Source of the DNA: Sphingopyxis sp. Root154
GTDB taxonomy: Bacteria; Pseudomonadota; Alphaproteobacteria; Sphingomonadales; Sphingomonadaceae
Assembly: GCF_001427105.1 (NCBI RefSeq)
Contig: NZ_LMGI01000003.1
Coordinates: 784,618 to 848,617 of the forward strand
Direction of reading: 5' to 3'
Length of the DNA: 64,000 nt
Shown: one piece after another, positions 7,393 to 35,888 of the stretch
How positions within the stretch are numbered: position 1 is the stretch's first letter
How the letters are laid out: every line of letters begins with the position of its first letter
The notes under the pieces: generated by a model
Told to the model about the DNA's origin: nothing
Seen by the model: the letters and a program-made list of their open reading frames with translations, nothing else
Database searches by the model: none
Translations under genes and position numbers: made by a program

Positions 7393-8694
7393 ATGGCTGA
7401 TCGCCGCCCGCCCCGGCGCCCGCGATCGTCCGGCGGCGCCGATCCCGCGGGCACGGCGACGCGCCGCGCCGCGCTGCGCCTGATCGATGCGATCCTGCGA
7501 CGCGGCGACCCGCTGGATGTCGCGATGCATGCCGCCACCCAGGGCCTAACGGCCACCGACCGCGCCTTCGCCGTGGCGATCGTGTCCGAAACGCTGCGCT
7601 GGATGGTCGACCTCGACGCGCTGATCGACGGTGCGACGGCGCAAATCCTCCCTGACGACGTCAAATCACGCGCGGCTTTGCGGATCGCGCTGGCGCAGCT
7701 GCTGGTCCTCAAAAGCCCCGGTCATGCGGTCGTATCGACCGCCCTGCCGCTCGTCGATGGCGGGCCGCGACGGCTGGTTCACGCAATCCTGTCGCGCGCG
7801 CAGCAGGAAGAATGGCAGTTGCCGGGTCGCGCCACGCTTCCCCTGCCCACCGCCGAACGCTGGGCCGAGCAATGGAGCCTGTCGATGGTCGAAGCCGCCG
7901 AAGCGGCCTGGAGTGCGCCGCCGCCGATTGACCTCAGCTTCGCCGCCGAACCGGGTGCGGAAGAATGGCCCGATGCCGTTTCACTCGCACCGCGGCACCG
8001 CCGCTTGCCCCGCGGCCAGGCAGTCGAAACGATGCCCGGCTATCGCGAAGGCGGCTGGTGGGTACAGGATCTGGCCGCAAGCATTCCCGCACGCCTGCTC
8101 GGCGCGGGCGAGGGCCGAACCGTGCTCGACCTCTGCGCCGCGCCCGGTGGCAAGACGATGCAACTCGCCGCGGCGGGGTGGAACGTTGTCGCGGTCGATT
8201 CCAGCGCGAAACGCCTCGAAAGGCTCCGCGCCAATATGGAACGCACGGGCCTGACAGCCGACATCGTCCAGGGCGATATCCGCTCGTGGGCGCCCGCGGA
8301 TCGGGCCGACGCGGTGCTCCTCGACGCGCCCTGCTCGGCCACCGGCATCTTCCGCCGTCATCCCGATGTGCTCCACCGCATCGAACCGCGGCAGATAGCG
8401 GAGATGGCCGAACTGCAGACCGAACTGCTGTCGCGCGCGGCGCGTTGGGTCAAGCCGGGTGGAACGCTGATCTATGCGACCTGCTCGCTCGAACAAGCCG
8501 AGGGGGAGGATCAGGTGTCGACCTTCCTCGATCACCATGCCGGATGGATCATCGATCCCGCGCGCGCCGAAGAACTGCCCGAGGCGGTTGTCGCCGACGA
8601 CCAGGGGCTGATCCGCACGCTCCCAGCCATGCTCGCCGACCAGGGCGGCCTCGATGGCTTTTTCGTCGCGCGGCTGCGCGCGCCGTCAGACTGA
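7393..8694 (+). CDS. rsmB: RsmB-family 16S rRNA (cytosine-5) methyltransferase
   Basis: A 433-residue SAM-dependent RNA m5C methyltransferase. The N-terminal ~130 residues form the NusB-like RNA-binding domain (AALRLIDAILRRGD... DRAFAVAIVSETLRW). The C-terminal catalytic domain has the SAM motif DLCAAPGGKTMQLA, the motif IV cysteine in LLDAPCSATGIFRRHPDV and the motif VI cysteine in LIYATCSLE. Both cysteines needed for catalysis and product release are present. It ends with a 9-base convergent overlap with the cyclase gene. RsmB (C967) is the likely identity; a related Rsm paralogue is possible. Confidence 0.9.
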   Translation: MADRRPPRRPRSSGGADPAGTATRRAALRLIDAILRRGDPLDVAMHAATQGLTATDRAFAVAIVSETLRWMVDLDALIDGATAQILPDDVKSRAALRIALAQLLVLKSPGHAVVSTALPLVDGGPRRLVHAILSRAQQEEWQLPGRATLPLPTAERWAEQWSLSMVEAAEAAWSAPPPIDLSFAAEPGAEEWPDAVSLAPRHRRLPRGQAVETMPGYREGGWWVQDLAASIPARLLGAGEGRTVLDLCAAPGGKTMQLAAAGWNVVAVDSSAKRLERLRANMERTGLTADIVQGDIRSWAPADRADAVLLDAPCSATGIFRRHPDVLHRIEPRQIAEMAELQTELLSRAARWVKPGGTLIYATCSLEQAEGEDQVSTFLDHHAGWIIDPARAEELPEAVVADDQGLIRTLPAMLADQGGLDGFFVARLRAPSD

Positions 8695-10467
8695 GCCGCG
8701 CGACAATCGATAGAGGGCGAGCTCGCCATAATCTTTGGCGAGCTGCACCTTGCCGACATAGTCGCAATCGAAATCCTGCGCGTTGCCAAGCGCCAGCATC
8801 GCGGCGAGTGGCTGCGTGCAATAGACCTGGCCGACCAATGTGACCGGCTCGATCCGCGCGGTGCGCGTCACTTCGGTGCCGTACCAGAGTTCGTTTCCGA
8901 CGACCGGATCGATCCCGCGATAGATCGGCCCAAAATGTATGCCGGTCCGCATACCGGCCTTTTGCCCTTCTAGCCCGAGACCCGGCGGCAGGATATCGAG
9001 CTGCTCCTGCATCGCGAGCGCGATCCGCGCCGCCGTAGCCGGGTCGCCGATGATCGCGTAGACGGCATCGCCCCAGGTATTTCGGAACAGCACCGCATCA
9101 CCGAAGTCGTCGAGAATGCGACCGATTCTGCCCATCACTTCGCTCGCAAAGATCGGCAATTCGGCTTCACCCAGTTTCGAAAAGCCCGCAAAGTCCGCGA
9201 ATAAGATAGCATAGAGACCTCGGCGCGTACCCTCGGGGGGCCTAGGCGCCGGCGGGAAATCGAGATTACGGTCGAGAGCGCCGACCGGGATCGTCACCGT
9301 CTCACCGCCGTGCCGCTGCCACAGCGCAACATCGGCATTCGTTCCGGCGATTGCGGCCGACGAACGTGCAGACATTTCAGGGTCGACCACAGCGAGCTGG
9401 ATTGCCGTCGTCTCCAATTCGCGCGCGCGCAGCTTGGCCAGGCCCATCATCGTGTGCGAACCGAGGACGAACTGACAATCGTCGCTGACATAGCGCGAGC
9501 CGCTGGCGAAATGCACCATCGCGGCCCGGTCGCGGCATGCGACATAGCGCGCCAGCCATGCCTCGCCGCCCGACAGCACCGATTGGGCGATAAAATCATC
9601 CTCGGCGAAGGGCAGCACGACAGTCAGGTCGATTCCGCGAGCGAGCGCTTCTTCGGCGAACAAAATGTCGGCGCCGCAAGCCAGCGGCCCGATCAGCGCC
9701 GAAAGCGGCTGCGCATCGAGCGCGGCAGCGATGGCGGCGTGGGCCTTTGCCTCGCCGAACCCGCCCGCGCGGAACATCCGCCCGCAATAGACCCCAACCG
9801 GGGGCGGGCAGAGCAGGTCGACGATCGCTCCGGTATGACGCGCATCGATCGCACCGCTCGCGGCAAGTCGCGACAGCTGGCGGCACGTCGAAGCGCGATC
9901 TCCGGCGCGATTTCCCGCCTGATTTTTGGCCGCTTGTGCGGGCCGCAGTGCTTCCTCGCCGCGGTTCAACAGCAACAGCGCCTCGACCAGCGTCACCAGG
10001 TCCCAATAATTGTCGGCGGCGCCATTTGCCGCGATCGGCCCCGCCAGCGCGGCGGCGCGCTCGCGCTCGCCGAGCAGCGCATAGAGGCTCGCAGCGTTGA
10101 TTGCCGGAAAGGAGGCGCCCGAAAGCGTCCATGCGTGATGATAGGCGGCCGCGGCCTGCCCCAGCAGCGCTGCGCGGCGGTCGCCGCTATTGTCGAAGGC
10201 GGCGTCTTTCCAGATCCGCCCCGCCAGCGCGAGACTGTCGACGTCGCCCGAGGCGGCAAGATCGAGTTGCTCATAGAGGTGCATCGCGCCCAGACTGTCG
10301 CCCGAAGCGGCGAGCGCCCGCACCATCAGATAGCGCAGGCGCGGGCTTTCAACGCCATCGCGCCGGGCCGCAGCGGCGCAATCGAACGCGCTCAGCGCAT
10401 CGCCCTCGGCCAGCCGGTGCGCGACCTCGGCTTCGGCGGCCGCAATCGGGTCCGCCGATCCTGTCAT
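8686..10467 (-). CDS. TPR / SLOG-like / class III adenylate or guanylate cyclase protein
   Basis: A 593-residue multidomain protein. Residues ~1-215 are Ala-rich helical pairs resembling TPR repeats. Residues ~220-365 (GVYCGRMF... PLACGADILFAEEAL... VVLPFAEDDF... GLAKLRAREL) look like a Rossmann-type SLOG nucleotide-sensing domain; this is my inference from pattern. Residues ~415-560 are a class III nucleotide cyclase domain: metal Asp425 in LFADFAGFSK, second Asp467 in NTWGDAVY and Arg538 in YGTEVTRTAR. The Asn normally found in the VNxAAR motif is Thr534 here, so activity needs testing. No membrane segment is seen. It starts within the stop of the upstream TIR gene (ATGA overlap), so the two are surely co-translated. 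The product could be cAMP, cGMP or another cyclic nucleotide. Confidence 0.85.
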   Translation of the reverse strand: MTGSADPIAAAEAEVAHRLAEGDALSAFDCAAAARRDGVESPRLRYLMVRALAASGDSLGAMHLYEQLDLAASGDVDSLALAGRIWKDAAFDNSGDRRAALLGQAAAAYHHAWTLSGASFPAINAASLYALLGERERAAALAGPIAANGAADNYWDLVTLVEALLLLNRGEEALRPAQAAKNQAGNRAGDRASTCRQLSRLAASGAIDARHTGAIVDLLCPPPVGVYCGRMFRAGGFGEAKAHAAIAAALDAQPLSALIGPLACGADILFAEEALARGIDLTVVLPFAEDDFIAQSVLSGGEAWLARYVACRDRAAMVHFASGSRYVSDDCQFVLGSHTMMGLAKLRARELETTAIQLAVVDPEMSARSSAAIAGTNADVALWQRHGGETVTIPVGALDRNLDFPPAPRPPEGTRRGLYAILFADFAGFSKLGEAELPIFASEVMGRIGRILDDFGDAVLFRNTWGDAVYAIIGDPATAARIALAMQEQLDILPPGLGLEGQKAGMRTGIHFGPIYRGIDPVVGNELWYGTEVTRTARIEPVTLVGQVYCTQPLAAMLALGNAQDFDCDYVGKVQLAKDYGELALYRLSRGSV

Positions 10468-11645
10468 CGTGCCGCTGTCTCGGCCGATTTGAGCAACGCG
10501 ATATTCGCTTTCTCGGTGGCGGACAGCTCGACCGTGTCGCTCGTCGGGCGATACCAGTCGAACTGGTTGAAATGCGCACGGAGCGAGGGATCGCTGAAGC
10601 GGAACCCGTTACGTGCGAAAATCTCGTTGCGCGCGATCCGGAGTTCGAGCGCGCTGTAATTGCCCAACTCGTCGGTCGAAAGCAGCCGCTCCGAGGAATC
10701 GGGAATGACGACACCGCTGCCACCGACGCCGGTCGGCGCGGCACCGGCGGGGATCGCCGGCGTGCGGCCTTCGACGAGCCGGATATATTTGCGGAACATG
10801 AAGCCCGTCGTGCCGTCGGCCTTGCGCACGCGCCACCACGTGCCGGACTGCTTGTAAGTCAGGAATTTCTCGCCATCGAGCACCTTGCCGATGATCTTGC
10901 TTTTTGCGCTGCGCTCCGAGCGGATATTGGTGAAGCCCTCGGGATCGTCGATGACCGCTGCGAGCGTGAAGGCTTCGGCCGGGCCATCACTTGCTATTCC
11001 GGGCGTTTCCGCGACTTTCTTTTCATCTGGCAGGATGGCAGCTTCGGTCGTTGAAGGAGCGGGTTCTGCGGGCGGTTGAAGCAGTTTCCACGCGAGCAAG
11101 GCTATCGCGATCGCGGCGAGCGCTACAAGCGCCCAGGCGAGTGTCAAAGCCAGAGAGGACTTCCGTTCCCGCGGGACGGCCTGCAAATCTCCCGGCGGCG
11201 GGGGCGGCGCAACGGGCGCTGGCGTCGGTCTCGACGGGGACGCCGCGACGGCCTCTCGGCCGCAAAGCTCCTCAAGGCTCATCAGGACCTTGCGCCAGGC
11301 TCCGTGCGCCGGATCGCCGTTCCAGTCGCGCAAATCGGCGAACTGGATCTGGTTGAATGGCAGCGGCGGCATCACATCATCGATCGCGGTCTGCACCAGC
11401 TTCTTCTGGTTTCGCGCGACGTCGGCTTCGGCACGCACCCATTCGGACTGCGCCGATGTGTGCGACCAGACGACGATCGCCGCCTTCGCGCTGCCGATCT
11501 TTTCGGTGATCACGTCGCCGTACGACCGGTGCGGCGGCAGTTCGGCATCCCACCAGACATCATAACCCGCCGCAGTGACCGCGGCCGCGATGTCGGCGAC
11601 GCGCGCCTTGTTGTCGCGCGAATAGGAAATGAACACGTCAACCAT
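10464..11645 (-). CDS. TIR domain protein with transmembrane segment, SH3 and YARHG domains
   Basis: A 393-residue protein. Residues 1-~130 form a TIR domain (DVFISYSRDNKARVADIA, YDVWWDAELPPHRSYGDVI). Glu73 in SEWVRAEAD occupies the place of the catalytic Glu of NAD-cleaving TIRs (pattern W-V-x-x-E). A Pro-rich linker precedes a single membrane helix at ~165-188. A bacterial SH3 domain follows at ~234-292 (FTNIRSERSAKSKIIGKV... WWRVRKADG), then a YARHG domain at ~318-388 (LRIARNEIFARNGFRF). With the TIR on the inside, SH3 and YARHG would face the periplasm, a topology suited to sensing the cell wall and signalling inward. Coupled by an ATGA overlap to the cyclase gene. Function is inferred, not known. 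Confidence 0.88.
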   Translation of the reverse strand: MVDVFISYSRDNKARVADIAAAVTAAGYDVWWDAELPPHRSYGDVITEKIGSAKAAIVVWSHTSAQSEWVRAEADVARNQKKLVQTAIDDVMPPLPFNQIQFADLRDWNGDPAHGAWRKVLMSLEELCGREAVAASPSRPTPAPVAPPPPPGDLQAVPRERKSSLALTLAWALVALAAIAIALLAWKLLQPPAEPAPSTTEAAILPDEKKVAETPGIASDGPAEAFTLAAVIDDPEGFTNIRSERSAKSKIIGKVLDGEKFLTYKQSGTWWRVRKADGTTGFMFRKYIRLVEGRTPAIPAGAAPTGVGGSGVVIPDSSERLLSTDELGNYSALELRIARNEIFARNGFRFSDPSLRAHFNQFDWYRPTSDTVELSATEKANIALLKSAETAAR

Positions 11646-11699: not shown

Positions 11700-13421
11700 T
11701 CAGAAGACCGCCCTGGGCGTCGCTTCCTTCATCATCGCCGCGCGTACCATCGGGATCGGCGGGCCGCCGTACGACAGGAACTCGTCGTGGAATGCCTTCC
11801 ACTTCGTCTTGTCGCCCTTCGTCCAGTCCTCGCGCAGCTTGCGGATCATCAGCTTGCCCATCGTGTAATTGAGGTAGGCGGGATCATAGGTGCCGCGCGC
11901 CGCCTGCTGTCGCGCATTGCCTTCGTCCTGATAGCATTGTTCCTTGAACAGCTTTTCGCTGTCGGCGACGGTCATACCCTTGGTGTGCAGACCGATCGCC
12001 GACAGATAGCGGCAATCGCGGAGCAGCGCGTTCGACAGCTGGCCGATATGCGTCTCGGGATCGCCCTCGCCCAGCCCCGCATCCCACATCATTTCCTCGG
12101 TATAATGCGCCCAGCCCTCGGCGAAGGCATAGCCGACGAACAGCTTGCCGAAGATGCTTTCGGCGCGGTTCGAGTGGAGGAAATTCAGGAAGTGGCCCGG
12201 CCATACCTCGTGGACCGACGTAAACATCAGATCCTTACGCCCAGGTACGAAATCGGCCTGCGTCTGCTTGTCCCACGTCGGGTCGGGCGGCGAGATATAA
12301 TAGACCGACGGCAGGCCCTTCTCATACGGTCCGGGGATGTCGATATAGGCGCTGTTCTGCCGGTTGTACGGCGGTGATTCCTCGACCTGCGCCTGCTCGG
12401 TGCCGGGGATTGTCACAATGTCCTTTTCGATCAGGAAGGCGCGCAGCGTCGGCAACTGGCGCCGCGCCTCGGCCACCGGGCCGTCGGCGGGCTTGTCCGA
12501 GTTCATCTTCTTCATGCAGTCGGCGATCGTCATGCCCGCGGCGTAAGTCGCGCAAGCCGCCTTCAGCGCGTCCTGATTGCGCTTGAGGTCGGCCTGACCG
12601 ATGCGTTCGAGCTCGGCGATCGGCGTATCGACGCCTTCATTGGTCAGGATCATCTTCGCAAACTTGTCGGCGCCGAGCGCATAGCCGTCGGGCGTGCCCG
12701 GCTGCGATCCGACATATTTGGCAAGATCGGTCATCGCCGCGCCGGCCTTTGCTACGGCGTCGTCGAACTGCTTCTGCAGCGCCTCGTCCTTGACCGAGGC
12801 AAAGGCCGCCTTGGCATCGCCCTTATAATAATCGGCAAAGCCGCCAAAGCCCGCGGTTCCGTATTTGACGAAGGTCGCGGGTAGCGGAAGCTTAAGGTTC
12901 GCCTTGATCTGCGCGGCAGCGGCGGGGACTTTTTCGGCATAAGCGATGAATGCCTTCATCCGCGTCGTCGCATCTGCATAGGGGCGCGCGATATAGACGT
13001 TGGGATCGAGCGCGCCGGTGTAGAAGGACGGGTTCTTTTGCGCAAAATCGGTATCGCGAAGGAAGAAGAGCTGCCCCTGTGCAACATGGATCAGATAATC
13101 GCGCTCGAACTTTTCGGCATCGGTCATCTCGCCGTCGAAAGCCTTCGCGTCGGCGATCGCTTTTTCGAGATACGCGGCCTGCTTCTCGATACCCTCGGGC
13201 GACCAGTCTGGAAGTTGCCCGTCGAACTCATGCTTGCCCTGATAGACCGCGAAATTCGGATTGAGCGGGAAATAGCCCTTCAGGAAATTATCGCGAAATT
13301 CGGTCCAGTTCTTCGCACTCGACGCAGCCGCCGACTTGTTTTCCGACGCGTTGCATGCGGTCAGTACCAACAGCGTCGCTGCCATCGCCGCGCCGCCGAA
13401 GCGGGCAAATTTGCTTGTCAT
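11700..13421 (-). CDS. DUF885 family lipoprotein, probable metallopeptidase-like
   Basis: A 573-residue protein of the DUF885 family, thermolysin-like metallohydrolases. The N-terminus is a lipoprotein signal (MTSKFARFGG... LVLTACNAS), so it is probably anchored in the envelope with Cys as first mature residue. The family motif HEVWPGHFLNFLH supplies likely zinc ligands, and GWAHYTEEM follows with a conserved Glu. The start at 13421 is chosen because it begins the signal peptide; the longer upstream frame does not look coding. It is divergent from the MFS gene. The substrate is unknown. Confidence 0.87.
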   Translation of the reverse strand: MTSKFARFGGAAMAATLLVLTACNASENKSAAASSAKNWTEFRDNFLKGYFPLNPNFAVYQGKHEFDGQLPDWSPEGIEKQAAYLEKAIADAKAFDGEMTDAEKFERDYLIHVAQGQLFFLRDTDFAQKNPSFYTGALDPNVYIARPYADATTRMKAFIAYAEKVPAAAAQIKANLKLPLPATFVKYGTAGFGGFADYYKGDAKAAFASVKDEALQKQFDDAVAKAGAAMTDLAKYVGSQPGTPDGYALGADKFAKMILTNEGVDTPIAELERIGQADLKRNQDALKAACATYAAGMTIADCMKKMNSDKPADGPVAEARRQLPTLRAFLIEKDIVTIPGTEQAQVEESPPYNRQNSAYIDIPGPYEKGLPSVYYISPPDPTWDKQTQADFVPGRKDLMFTSVHEVWPGHFLNFLHSNRAESIFGKLFVGYAFAEGWAHYTEEMMWDAGLGEGDPETHIGQLSNALLRDCRYLSAIGLHTKGMTVADSEKLFKEQCYQDEGNARQQAARGTYDPAYLNYTMGKLMIRKLREDWTKGDKTKWKAFHDEFLSYGGPPIPMVRAAMMKEATPRAVF

Positions 13422-13548
13422 TCGATAGTCTCCCTCAATCGATCGCGGGTTTCTGCCACTGCGTCTGGCCGATGGCATCCCATAATCGACGAACGGCATA
13501 CACAAGGGTGACTGGACAGCGACGAAAAGCACGATAGGGCGGACGGCG

Positions 13549-34853: not shown

Positions 34854-35888
34854 TCAACTGCAGGCAGGACCGCGCAGCCAGCGTTGCGTTTCATGGCTGC
34901 GGAACCGCACCATGCCCTGGCTCGATTGCATGGTGACGAGATTGTCGAACTCCATGCTGGTGCGTGTGTAGGTGCCCCGCATCGTTATCTGCAAATTGGC
35001 GTTCGGGTCTTCGCCCGCGGGCTTGCAGTTGAGGTAGCCGCTGATCCGGCCGCCGTTCATCTTGAACGCGCCGATCGTGCATTTGGCTTCATGGTCCGGA
35101 TCGAACAGCAGCACGCCGGGTTTCGCCGCAACTTTCGGTGCAATGCAATCTTCGGGATCGGGGTCGGTTTCCAGCACTTGTTTGAATTGCGCGACGAATT
35201 CGGGCGCCATTTCGGGGAAGAGAATTTCGACGACCTCGCGCTTGGTGGTCCAGATACCGGCTTCGATCGGATTGTCGGCGACCGCCGCGCCCGGATCGCC
35301 CGCCGTCGGGGTACGGCTTTGCCACCAGATGCCGCCCCCGATCAGCCCGACGAGCGCAACGCCCGCCGCAATGACCATCCATAACCGCTTACGCCGCGGC
35401 GCGAGCGGTGCGGACATTTGCCGCGCGGTCGTGCCGGGCGACACCGCAGGCGCTGTGCCCGGGCTCATCGCGGCGACGATCCGCTCGACCGCCTGCTCCT
35501 CACCCGCGAACCAGTCGATCCACTGATAATCCTTTAGCCAGTATGCGAGCCCCTGCGCGCGCACATCCTCCAGCCGCACCGGCAGGATGATCTTGTTGCT
35601 GTCCTCGCCCAACATCAGTTCACGCTTCACATGGCGCGACTGGTCAGACTGGGGGCAGAAGAGCAGCACGATCGCGTCCGATCGGTCGATCTGGTCGACA
35701 ATCGACTGGTCGAAGGCAGTGCCGGCGGCGATGTCGTCAGGCGCGAGCCAGCCATCGATCCCACGCACCGCGAGCAGGCGTTTTAATCGCCGAGCGGTCT
35801 CAACCTGCGAGCTGTGATGGCTGATGAAAGCGGAAAGCCGCTTTGGCTTGATCGGCGGTGGTCCGGCGTCGGTCATTGCGGCCATCAT
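34854..35888 (-). CDS. TIR domain protein with transmembrane segment and DUF3617-like domain
   Basis: A 344-residue protein. The TIR domain is at ~16-140 (RLSAFISHHSSQVETARRLKRLL, GWLAPDDIAAGTAFDQSI, DAIVLLFCPQSDQSRHVKRELML). Glu90 lies in the catalytic-Glu position of NADase TIRs but is preceded by H-V instead of W-V. A single membrane helix follows at ~169-189 (LWMVIAAGVALVGLIGGGIW). A DUF3617-like periplasmic domain fills ~209-344, with Cys in DPEDCIAPK, EAKCTIGAF and YLNCKPAG. Topology puts the TIR inside the cell and the Cys-rich sensor outside. Its stop codon directly abuts the stop of the CitE-like gene. Confidence 0.86.
   Translation of the reverse strand: MMAAMTDAGPPPIKPKRLSAFISHHSSQVETARRLKRLLAVRGIDGWLAPDDIAAGTAFDQSIVDQIDRSDAIVLLFCPQSDQSRHVKRELMLGEDSNKIILPVRLEDVRAQGLAYWLKDYQWIDWFAGEEQAVERIVAAMSPGTAPAVSPGTTARQMSAPLAPRRKRLWMVIAAGVALVGLIGGGIWWQSRTPTAGDPGAAVADNPIEAGIWTTKREVVEILFPEMAPEFVAQFKQVLETDPDPEDCIAPKVAAKPGVLLFDPDHEAKCTIGAFKMNGGRISGYLNCKPAGEDPNANLQITMRGTYTRTSMEFDNLVTMQSSQGMVRFRSHETQRWLRGPACS

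Follow-up and report, generated by a model that had tools for sequence, protein, structure and literature searches.

Two overlapping genes of Sphingopyxis sp. Root154, located in a 64,000-nucleotide stretch of contig NZ_LMGI01000003.1 (positions 784,618 to 848,617; the whole stretch is referred to as the window, and its own numbering is used here), encode a predicted TIR receptor-like membrane protein, P0002, and a protein, P0001, that joins a TPR-S domain, a SLOG-like domain and a class III nucleotide cyclase domain. The two genes are inherited as a unit, and in our best reading the pair may operate in the manner of Thoeris, but with a cyclase at the output end, without being a member of Thoeris. 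The genes are:

10464..11645, minus strand: P0002, TIR - membrane helix - SH3_3 - YARHG protein of 393 amino acids (open frame, Pfam and hydropathy)
8686..10467, minus strand: P0001, TPR-S - SLOG-like - class III cyclase protein of 593 amino acids (open frame and Pfam)
10464..10467, minus strand: ATGA, in which the stop of P0002 overlaps the start of P0001 (sequence)

A sequence-only reading of the window had already proposed the overlap and this domain content. Both frames and the ATGA were found on the minus strand, and Pfam returned TIR_2, SH3_3, YARHG, TPR-S and Guanylate_cyc, all above its cut-offs, with Glu73 of the TIR domain present.

Among 80 genomes of the same genus, both genes stand side by side on one contig in the same 28 and neither occurs in the other 52 (P0001 was scored as present at no less than 600 bits; G449, one of the 52 negatives, has a weak 74-bit match). 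Some of the 28 pairs are incomplete: the TIR gene is cut at a contig end in G476 and broken in G498, the P0001 homologue of G481 holds a stop and the P0001 match of G470 covers residues 3-395 only. At the level of the loci, signs of decay were seen as a broken TIR gene in L058 and as an in-frame stop in the P0001 homologues of L067 and L218. The overlap is kept as ATGA or GTGA at the stop of the TIR gene in 28/28 same-genus genomes and in 32 of the 34 loci examined, and is therefore not a matter of chance. The nearest named relatives of P0001, with 92-93% identity, come from one Sphingopyxis and one unclassified Sphingomonadaceae record. The pair lies between two neighbours:

7393..8694, plus strand: rRNA methyltransferase, the fixed neighbour at the empty site, named rsmB-like without a family search
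11700..13424, minus strand: DUF885 protein, the other neighbour of the pair

In ten empty sites read from the 52 negatives, rsmB adjoins the DUF885 gene in six and a major facilitator superfamily gene in two, with 47-362 bp between the matched stretches. The other two sites hold a glycosyltransferase-like gene between rsmB and DUF885, recognized by eye without a family search (L232:5845-7006 and L240:5568-6764). The site of the pair is fixed, with the same chromosomal genes on either side. In an rsmB tree with 37 rows, comprising 27 of the 28 positives (G470 was dropped, having no rsmB in its stretch) and 10 hand-chosen negatives of the 52, presence of the pair needs six changes, at least four of which are forced by supported branches; this count is rough, because rsmB may have travelled with the pair. 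The empty sites and the six changes together indicate that the pair comes and goes together. The earlier interpretation is partly supported: its view of the two genes as one unit is borne out by these genus counts and by the TIR linkage described below (27 of 34 family loci). It had named unlinked homologues in other genomes as an outcome that would speak against the coupling, and the neighbourhood survey does not refute the pairing.

The wider sample consisted of 149 genomes of the taxonomic family, 34 of which, the window's own included, have a P0001 relative (the sensor) at E 1e-20. In 27 of the 34 loci the sensor has a TIR gene no more than 1.5 kb away, and in 24 of these the TIR gene shares the sensor's strand at a distance of up to 900 bp; the 50 control regions, 940,010 bases in all, contain none. 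This comparison is biased in favour of the sensor loci by a TIR profile that was trained on the test regions. The controls were 40 regions with hand-chosen coordinates from 20 of the same genomes and 10 genus rsmB regions; family regions are 4 to 17 kb long, some cut by contig ends, and control regions 14 to 20 kb. The same profile also detected TIR genes far from the sensor (at 34857 in the window and in G135). Linkage of TIR genes and sensors is recurrent in the taxonomic family, and the TIR neighbours that adjoin this one sensor family are of several, quite different kinds. Relatives of P0002 itself, at a score of at least 190 bits, were found at seven places in six genomes; six of the seven adjoin a SLOG-cyclase gene and the seventh stands alone.

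The 34 loci fall into two kinds by the state of the cyclase, and the window pair belongs to the kind in which the Asp/Asp/Arg (D/D/R) set of the cyclase is intact. Among the 17 intact loci, which include L051 with a cyclase match only, 11 have a TIR gene, one a Crp-like gene and none pNTSase1, whereas the corresponding numbers among the 17 non-intact loci are 16, 15 and six. Many loci of the non-intact kind have a small gene between the TIR gene and the sensor; a Pfam search of four of these small proteins found pNTSase1 (PF20301) in L053 and L050 and no match in L052 and L049. A second layout is seen in sphingomonads (L053, L141, L142, L144, L146-L149, L151, L152 and others), consisting of a TIR-TPR type protein, a small gene, a TPR-S/SLOG protein whose cyclase has decayed or been lost and, mostly, a divergent Crp-like regulator, where the small gene encodes pNTSase1 in some and an IDPDxxNPG-like C-terminal end is common to many. 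The split may mean that loci of the first kind use the cyclase as their output and that something else has taken its place in loci of the second kind, although this does not explain the Crp genes beside decayed cyclases. A Crp-like regulator was considered as partner of the window pair and rejected, the profile finding none in the window.

Readers of cyclic mononucleotides (cNMPs) do occur near some relatives with an intact cyclase, a Crp-like gene lying 2.6 kb away in L048 and abutting the sensor gene in L179-L181 and a P450 lying near the sensor in L190, which fits cNMP output. L179, L180 and L181 belong to one other genus; in these the Crp-like gene abuts a TPR-S/SLOG/cyclase gene, no TIR gene was found near, and Pfam was run on L179 only. 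In another alphaproteobacterium, L190:5355-7709 (minus strand) encodes a cytochrome P450 fused to two cNMP-binding domains and is divergent from a TPR-S/SLOG/cyclase frame at a distance of 79 bp. Among the loci outside the family, cNMP-binding genes are directly adjacent in four (L179-L181 and L190). STAND-type proteins were seen by distant relatives, DUF4062-NACHT-TPR at L080:9787-14205 (plus strand) and nSTAND1-TPR at L083:10021-13404 (plus strand).

The features of P0002 are:

11313..11636, minus strand: TIR domain, residues 4-111 (Pfam TIR_2, E 2.6e-20)
11427..11429, minus strand: Glu73 codon of the TIR domain (alignment with a Glu of TIR structure 3h16)
11070..11162, minus strand: predicted membrane helix, residues about 162-192 (hydropathy)
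10782..10931, minus strand: SH3_3, residues 239-288, predicted periplasmic (Pfam, E 1.6e-9)
10479..10715, minus strand: YARHG, residues 311-389, predicted periplasmic (Pfam, E 1.2e-20)

The TIR_2 score is 73.6 bits against a gathering cut-off of 28. Glu73, which we take to be the TIR catalytic position, is invariant in P0002 and its 16 aligned relatives (17/17; the alignment covers 16 of 18 named P0002-type loci, with L055 and the broken L058 excluded), and a Glu is found at this position in 53/53 TIR stretches from 86 regions read, a set that includes one contig twice and, among its stretches, the window's other TIR, unlinked to a sensor. With both the family match and the catalytic-position Glu, P0002 is a putative TIR NADase that may cleave nicotinamide adenine dinucleotide (NAD+). 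The TIR part also matches several PADLOC TIR models, the best being SAVED_TIR (E 6.4e-9); PADLOC ThsB matches the TIR part only (E 1.4e-5, 22.6 bits), and Pfam ThsB_TIR stays below its cut-off. A single hydrophobic stretch (residues about 162-192) is preceded by basic residues and separated from the TIR domain by a proline-rich linker, and the positive-inside rule would place the TIR domain in the cytoplasm and SH3 and YARHG in the periplasm. YARHG is a proposed peptidoglycan binder found with kinases and SH3, according to a passage of its description (PMC3355149). Two further TIR proteins are encoded in this genome, one in the window at 34857-35888 (minus strand), with an N-terminal TIR_2 and a C-terminal DUF3617, and a third at G000:C2:1055613.

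The features of P0001 are:

10084..10383, minus strand: TPR-S, residues 29-128 (Pfam PF20308, E 1.1e-11)
9295..9822, minus strand: SLOG-like domain, residues about 216-391 (profile match to LOG)
8737..9210, minus strand: class III nucleotide cyclase, residues 420-577 (Pfam Guanylate_cyc PF00211, E 8.8e-8)
9193-9195, minus strand: cyclase codon D425
9079-9081, minus strand: cyclase codon N463
9067-9069, minus strand: cyclase codon D467
8854-8856, minus strand: cyclase codon R538

With a PF20308 score of 45.7 bits against a gathering cut-off of 27.6, P0001 is by profile a member of the TPR-S family. The TPR-like repeats of the sequence-only reading are thus present and are refined to Pfam TPR-S, but they are not universal: nine sphingomonad loci (L039, L040 and L070-L076; L038 and L070 are one contig, counted once) lack TPR-S and keep SLOG and cyclase, so that SLOG and cyclase form the core. 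The TIR gene is adjacent in five of these nine TPR-less loci. At L040:2360-3082 (plus strand) an SH3_3 protein is encoded directly downstream of the TIR and SLOG-cyclase pair. Burroughs and Aravind (2020) reportedly proposed that TPR-S senses signals derived from NAD+ and that the ASK region arose from it. The TPR part of P0001 has a sub-threshold Pfam match to the MAP3K TRAF-binding region, and positions 55-180 of a profile built from 26 family members match human ASK1 (5ulm) with E 0.0022. Against the same profile, generic TPR proteins made by engineering outscore ASK1, which makes the ASK1 match alone weak evidence. A bacterial origin of parts of the ASK signalosome is stated in a passage of PMC8195603, which cites Burroughs and Aravind 2020.

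Pfam gives no match for the middle domain of P0001, even at E values as high as 10; a search with all 32 members turned up six families, each hitting a single member (best E 0.03). The domain is nevertheless likely, though not proven, to belong to the SLOG superfamily, as the sequence-only reading had put it. Compared by hhalign with a reference profile of 19 LOG proteins from related genomes, picked by the PGGxGTxxE motif, it gave homology to LOG at E 2e-5 (probability 77%, score 38.1, 70 columns in the N-terminal half); 60 column shuffles reached at most 28.4 with a mean of 13.2, and reversed, shuffled or unrelated profiles stayed below 26. The comparison with a DprA profile gave E 0.038 and that with a YAcAr (PF10686) profile no signal. 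Against solved structures the SLOG profile found LOG (5zbk) at E 0.6, ranked below HMG-CoA lyase (E 0.46-0.47). As a benchmark, LOG and DprA, both established as SLOG families, reach no more than 7% with each other in the same procedure. Eight positions (G229, G265, D267, E272, P286, W304, R307 and G342) are near-invariant, each in 80 to 84 of 85 stretches. The P0001 family alignment drew on 25 of the 33 named P0001 loci. The PGGxGTxxE motif, the catalytic motif of LOG, occurs in 0/85 SLOG-like stretches, making a binding role likelier than LOG-type hydrolysis.

In the cyclase domain, D425, D467 and R538 are all present in P0001, and D/D/R occur together in 69 of 79 rows (one contig, L038 = L070, counted twice, the split gene L191 and two other proteins, in L178 and L186, among them). 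We take D425 and D467 to be the metal-binding Asp residues, R538 the transition-state Arg and 463 the base-reading position. A PADLOC search returned nothing for P0001, and neither Pfam nor PADLOC gave a SIR2 match in it.

From the observed domain content, conserved positions, overlap and linkage we infer activities, a stimulus, messengers and a direction of flow. P0002 would be a single-pass membrane receptor whose periplasmic SH3 and YARHG domains perhaps touch peptidoglycan and whose TIR domain faces the cytoplasm. An envelope signal would cluster the TIR domains, which would turn NAD+ into an ADP-ribose-type messenger; this messenger may, by analogy with type I Thoeris, bind the SLOG domain of P0001, with TPR-S, where present, acting as a scaffold or second sensor. 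Binding to SLOG would switch the cyclase to produce a cyclic mononucleotide, and this could be read by cNMP-binding proteins encoded elsewhere in the genome. Such an envelope-driven messenger relay from TIR to cyclase has, in our judgement, almost an even chance of being correct. The predicted periplasmic sensory half on the TIR chain makes TIR likelier an input than an effector. The more specific form, in which P0001 turns an NAD+-derived messenger into a cyclic mononucleotide whose base may be non-canonical, as part of a physiological rather than suicidal response parallel to TIR-1/ASK1, is on the whole unlikely.

The relay resembles several known systems. Type I Thoeris (the ThsB TIR with the ThsA SIR2-SLOG protein) likewise has two genes, a TIR enzyme and a SLOG partner, with SLOG perhaps reading the TIR product here as well; that the product binds the SLOG domain and thereby switches SIR2 is described in parts of PMC12948488 and PMC9503650. 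The present pair differs in that a cyclase replaces SIR2, TPR-S is added and the TIR protein is predicted to be membrane-bound with a periplasmic sensor, and it is the cyclase in place of SIR2 that sets it outside Thoeris. In Pycsar, in which a pyrimidine cyclase is combined with a TIR or membrane effector, a class III cyclase gene also lies beside a TIR gene; here, however, the TIR protein has no cNMP-binding domain, both partners carry sensor domains and P0001 has no PADLOC match, so on the features tested the pair does not appear to be Pycsar. The TPR-S/pNTSase1/TIR conflict systems, reportedly predicted by Burroughs and Aravind 2020, are close in that P0001 passes the TPR-S cut-off and relatives with pNTSase1 and TIR exist in the taxonomic family. 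They differ from the window pair, where neither pNTSase1 nor Crp is a neighbour and the cyclase residues are intact, while the cyclase is degenerate or missing at all six pNTSase1 loci and 15 of the 16 Crp loci. The pair would be a variant of these reportedly predicted TIR/TPR-S systems. In animals, a TIR protein (TIR-1/SARM1) acts upstream of an ASK1-type TPR region (ASK1/NSY-1; PMC8920508), to which the match is weak, and the output there is a kinase, not a cyclase. A literature search of limited depth, with likely sources lying outside it, found no description of this pair, and we make no claim that the pair is unpublished.

Several observations weigh against the relay. Shared descent makes the genus pattern look stronger than it is, presence being clustered on the rsmB tree (six changes versus a mean of 9.0 for shuffled labels). 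No TIR gene lies near the sensor in 7 of the 34 family loci (in L051 only the cyclase matches); of the 29 loci outside the family, the same search found such a gene in 7 and none in 22. Four of the nine TPR-less loci (Erythrobacter and Qipengyuania) have no adjacent TIR gene; three of these four genomes have a 58-63% identical TIR elsewhere, and in one Qipengyuania genome, G149 (L071), the sole P0002 matches are only 34-36% identical. Asn463 aligns with Lys of the adenylyl-type 3mr7 and Glu of the guanylyl-type 3et6; P0001 has neither canonical residue here, and 63 of the 69 D/D/R rows have Asn at this position, so that the product base is not predictable and cyclase activity is uncertain. Twelve PF00027 matches occur in the genome and none adjoins the pair, and the tracking of Crp-like genes with non-intact cyclases (15/17 vs 1/17 intact) misfits cNMP output at those loci. 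On the envelope side, the YARHG motif is less conserved in Gram-negatives and may bind other ligands or none, as a passage of PMC3355149 has it.

Other explanations distribute the roles differently. TIR might make no messenger at all, its clustering instead recruiting P0001 through contacts between TIR and TPR-S/SLOG and so activating the cyclase, as TIR-1 does with NSY-1, which it recruits, activates and physically contacts in Caenorhabditis elegans (a passage of PMC8920508, citing earlier work). The TPR-S region of P0001 with its weak ASK1 match suits such a scaffold, and direct contact would equally yield a conserved pairing, but the TIR neighbour is kept in five of the nine loci without TPR-S, a Glu in every one of the 53 TIR stretches exceeds the need of a pure adaptor and very different TIR proteins pair with one sensor family. 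We consider this scaffold rather improbable. More improbable is the reverse flow, in which P0001 would sense a threat and make a cNMP and the TIR of P0002 would be an effector destroying NAD+. The gene arrangement does resemble Pycsar, whose messengers are covered in a part of PMC12948488, and PADLOC TIR models recognize P0002 (best E 6.4e-9). Against it, P0002 carries SH3 and YARHG in place of a cNMP-binding domain (a Pfam search of P0002 found no PF00027 at E up to 1), P0001 has no match in PADLOC or in phage records and the chromosomal site is fixed. PycTIR itself carries a cNMP-binding domain. Phage defence, one of the two functions suggested by the sequence-only reading, accordingly finds little support, the PADLOC matches of the TIR part notwithstanding. 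The phage search, which covered P0001 only, returned no match, and plasmid records gave seven weak P0001 matches and three P0002 matches, none covering 80%. A defence island was also set aside, given the fixed site between the same chromosomal genes.

It is very improbable that the SLOG domain acts as an enzyme on the TIR product, processing or removing it, so that P0001 resets the signal instead of receiving it; the lack of PGGxGTxxE in all stretches and the fixed fusion of the domain to a cyclase suit a sensor better. Slightly less probable still is that the genes are uncoupled and hitch-hike as a neutral cassette within one lineage. A single acquired segment could explain the patchy presence at one site, and four of the nine TPR-less loci lack a TIR neighbour, yet despite the tree changes (four or more) one full gene was never seen alone in 80 genomes, and the conserved overlap, the retained catalytic residues and the use of several TIR kinds by the same sensor family also speak for coupling. 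The envelope-driven relay thus remains the reading that we prefer.

To our knowledge, bacterial TIR signalling is known mostly from abortive phage defence. The family offers natural experiments on the relay, namely TPR-less versions, versions without a TIR neighbour and decayed-cyclase versions with a Crp-like regulator and a small partner gene beside them. If the relay is true, reversible TIR signalling would have a candidate in a TIR receptor that is fixed in the chromosome and paired with a SLOG-cyclase, in which one nucleotide messenger is converted into another in a testable way, and the pair would be a minimal bacterial counterpart of TIR-1/ASK1.

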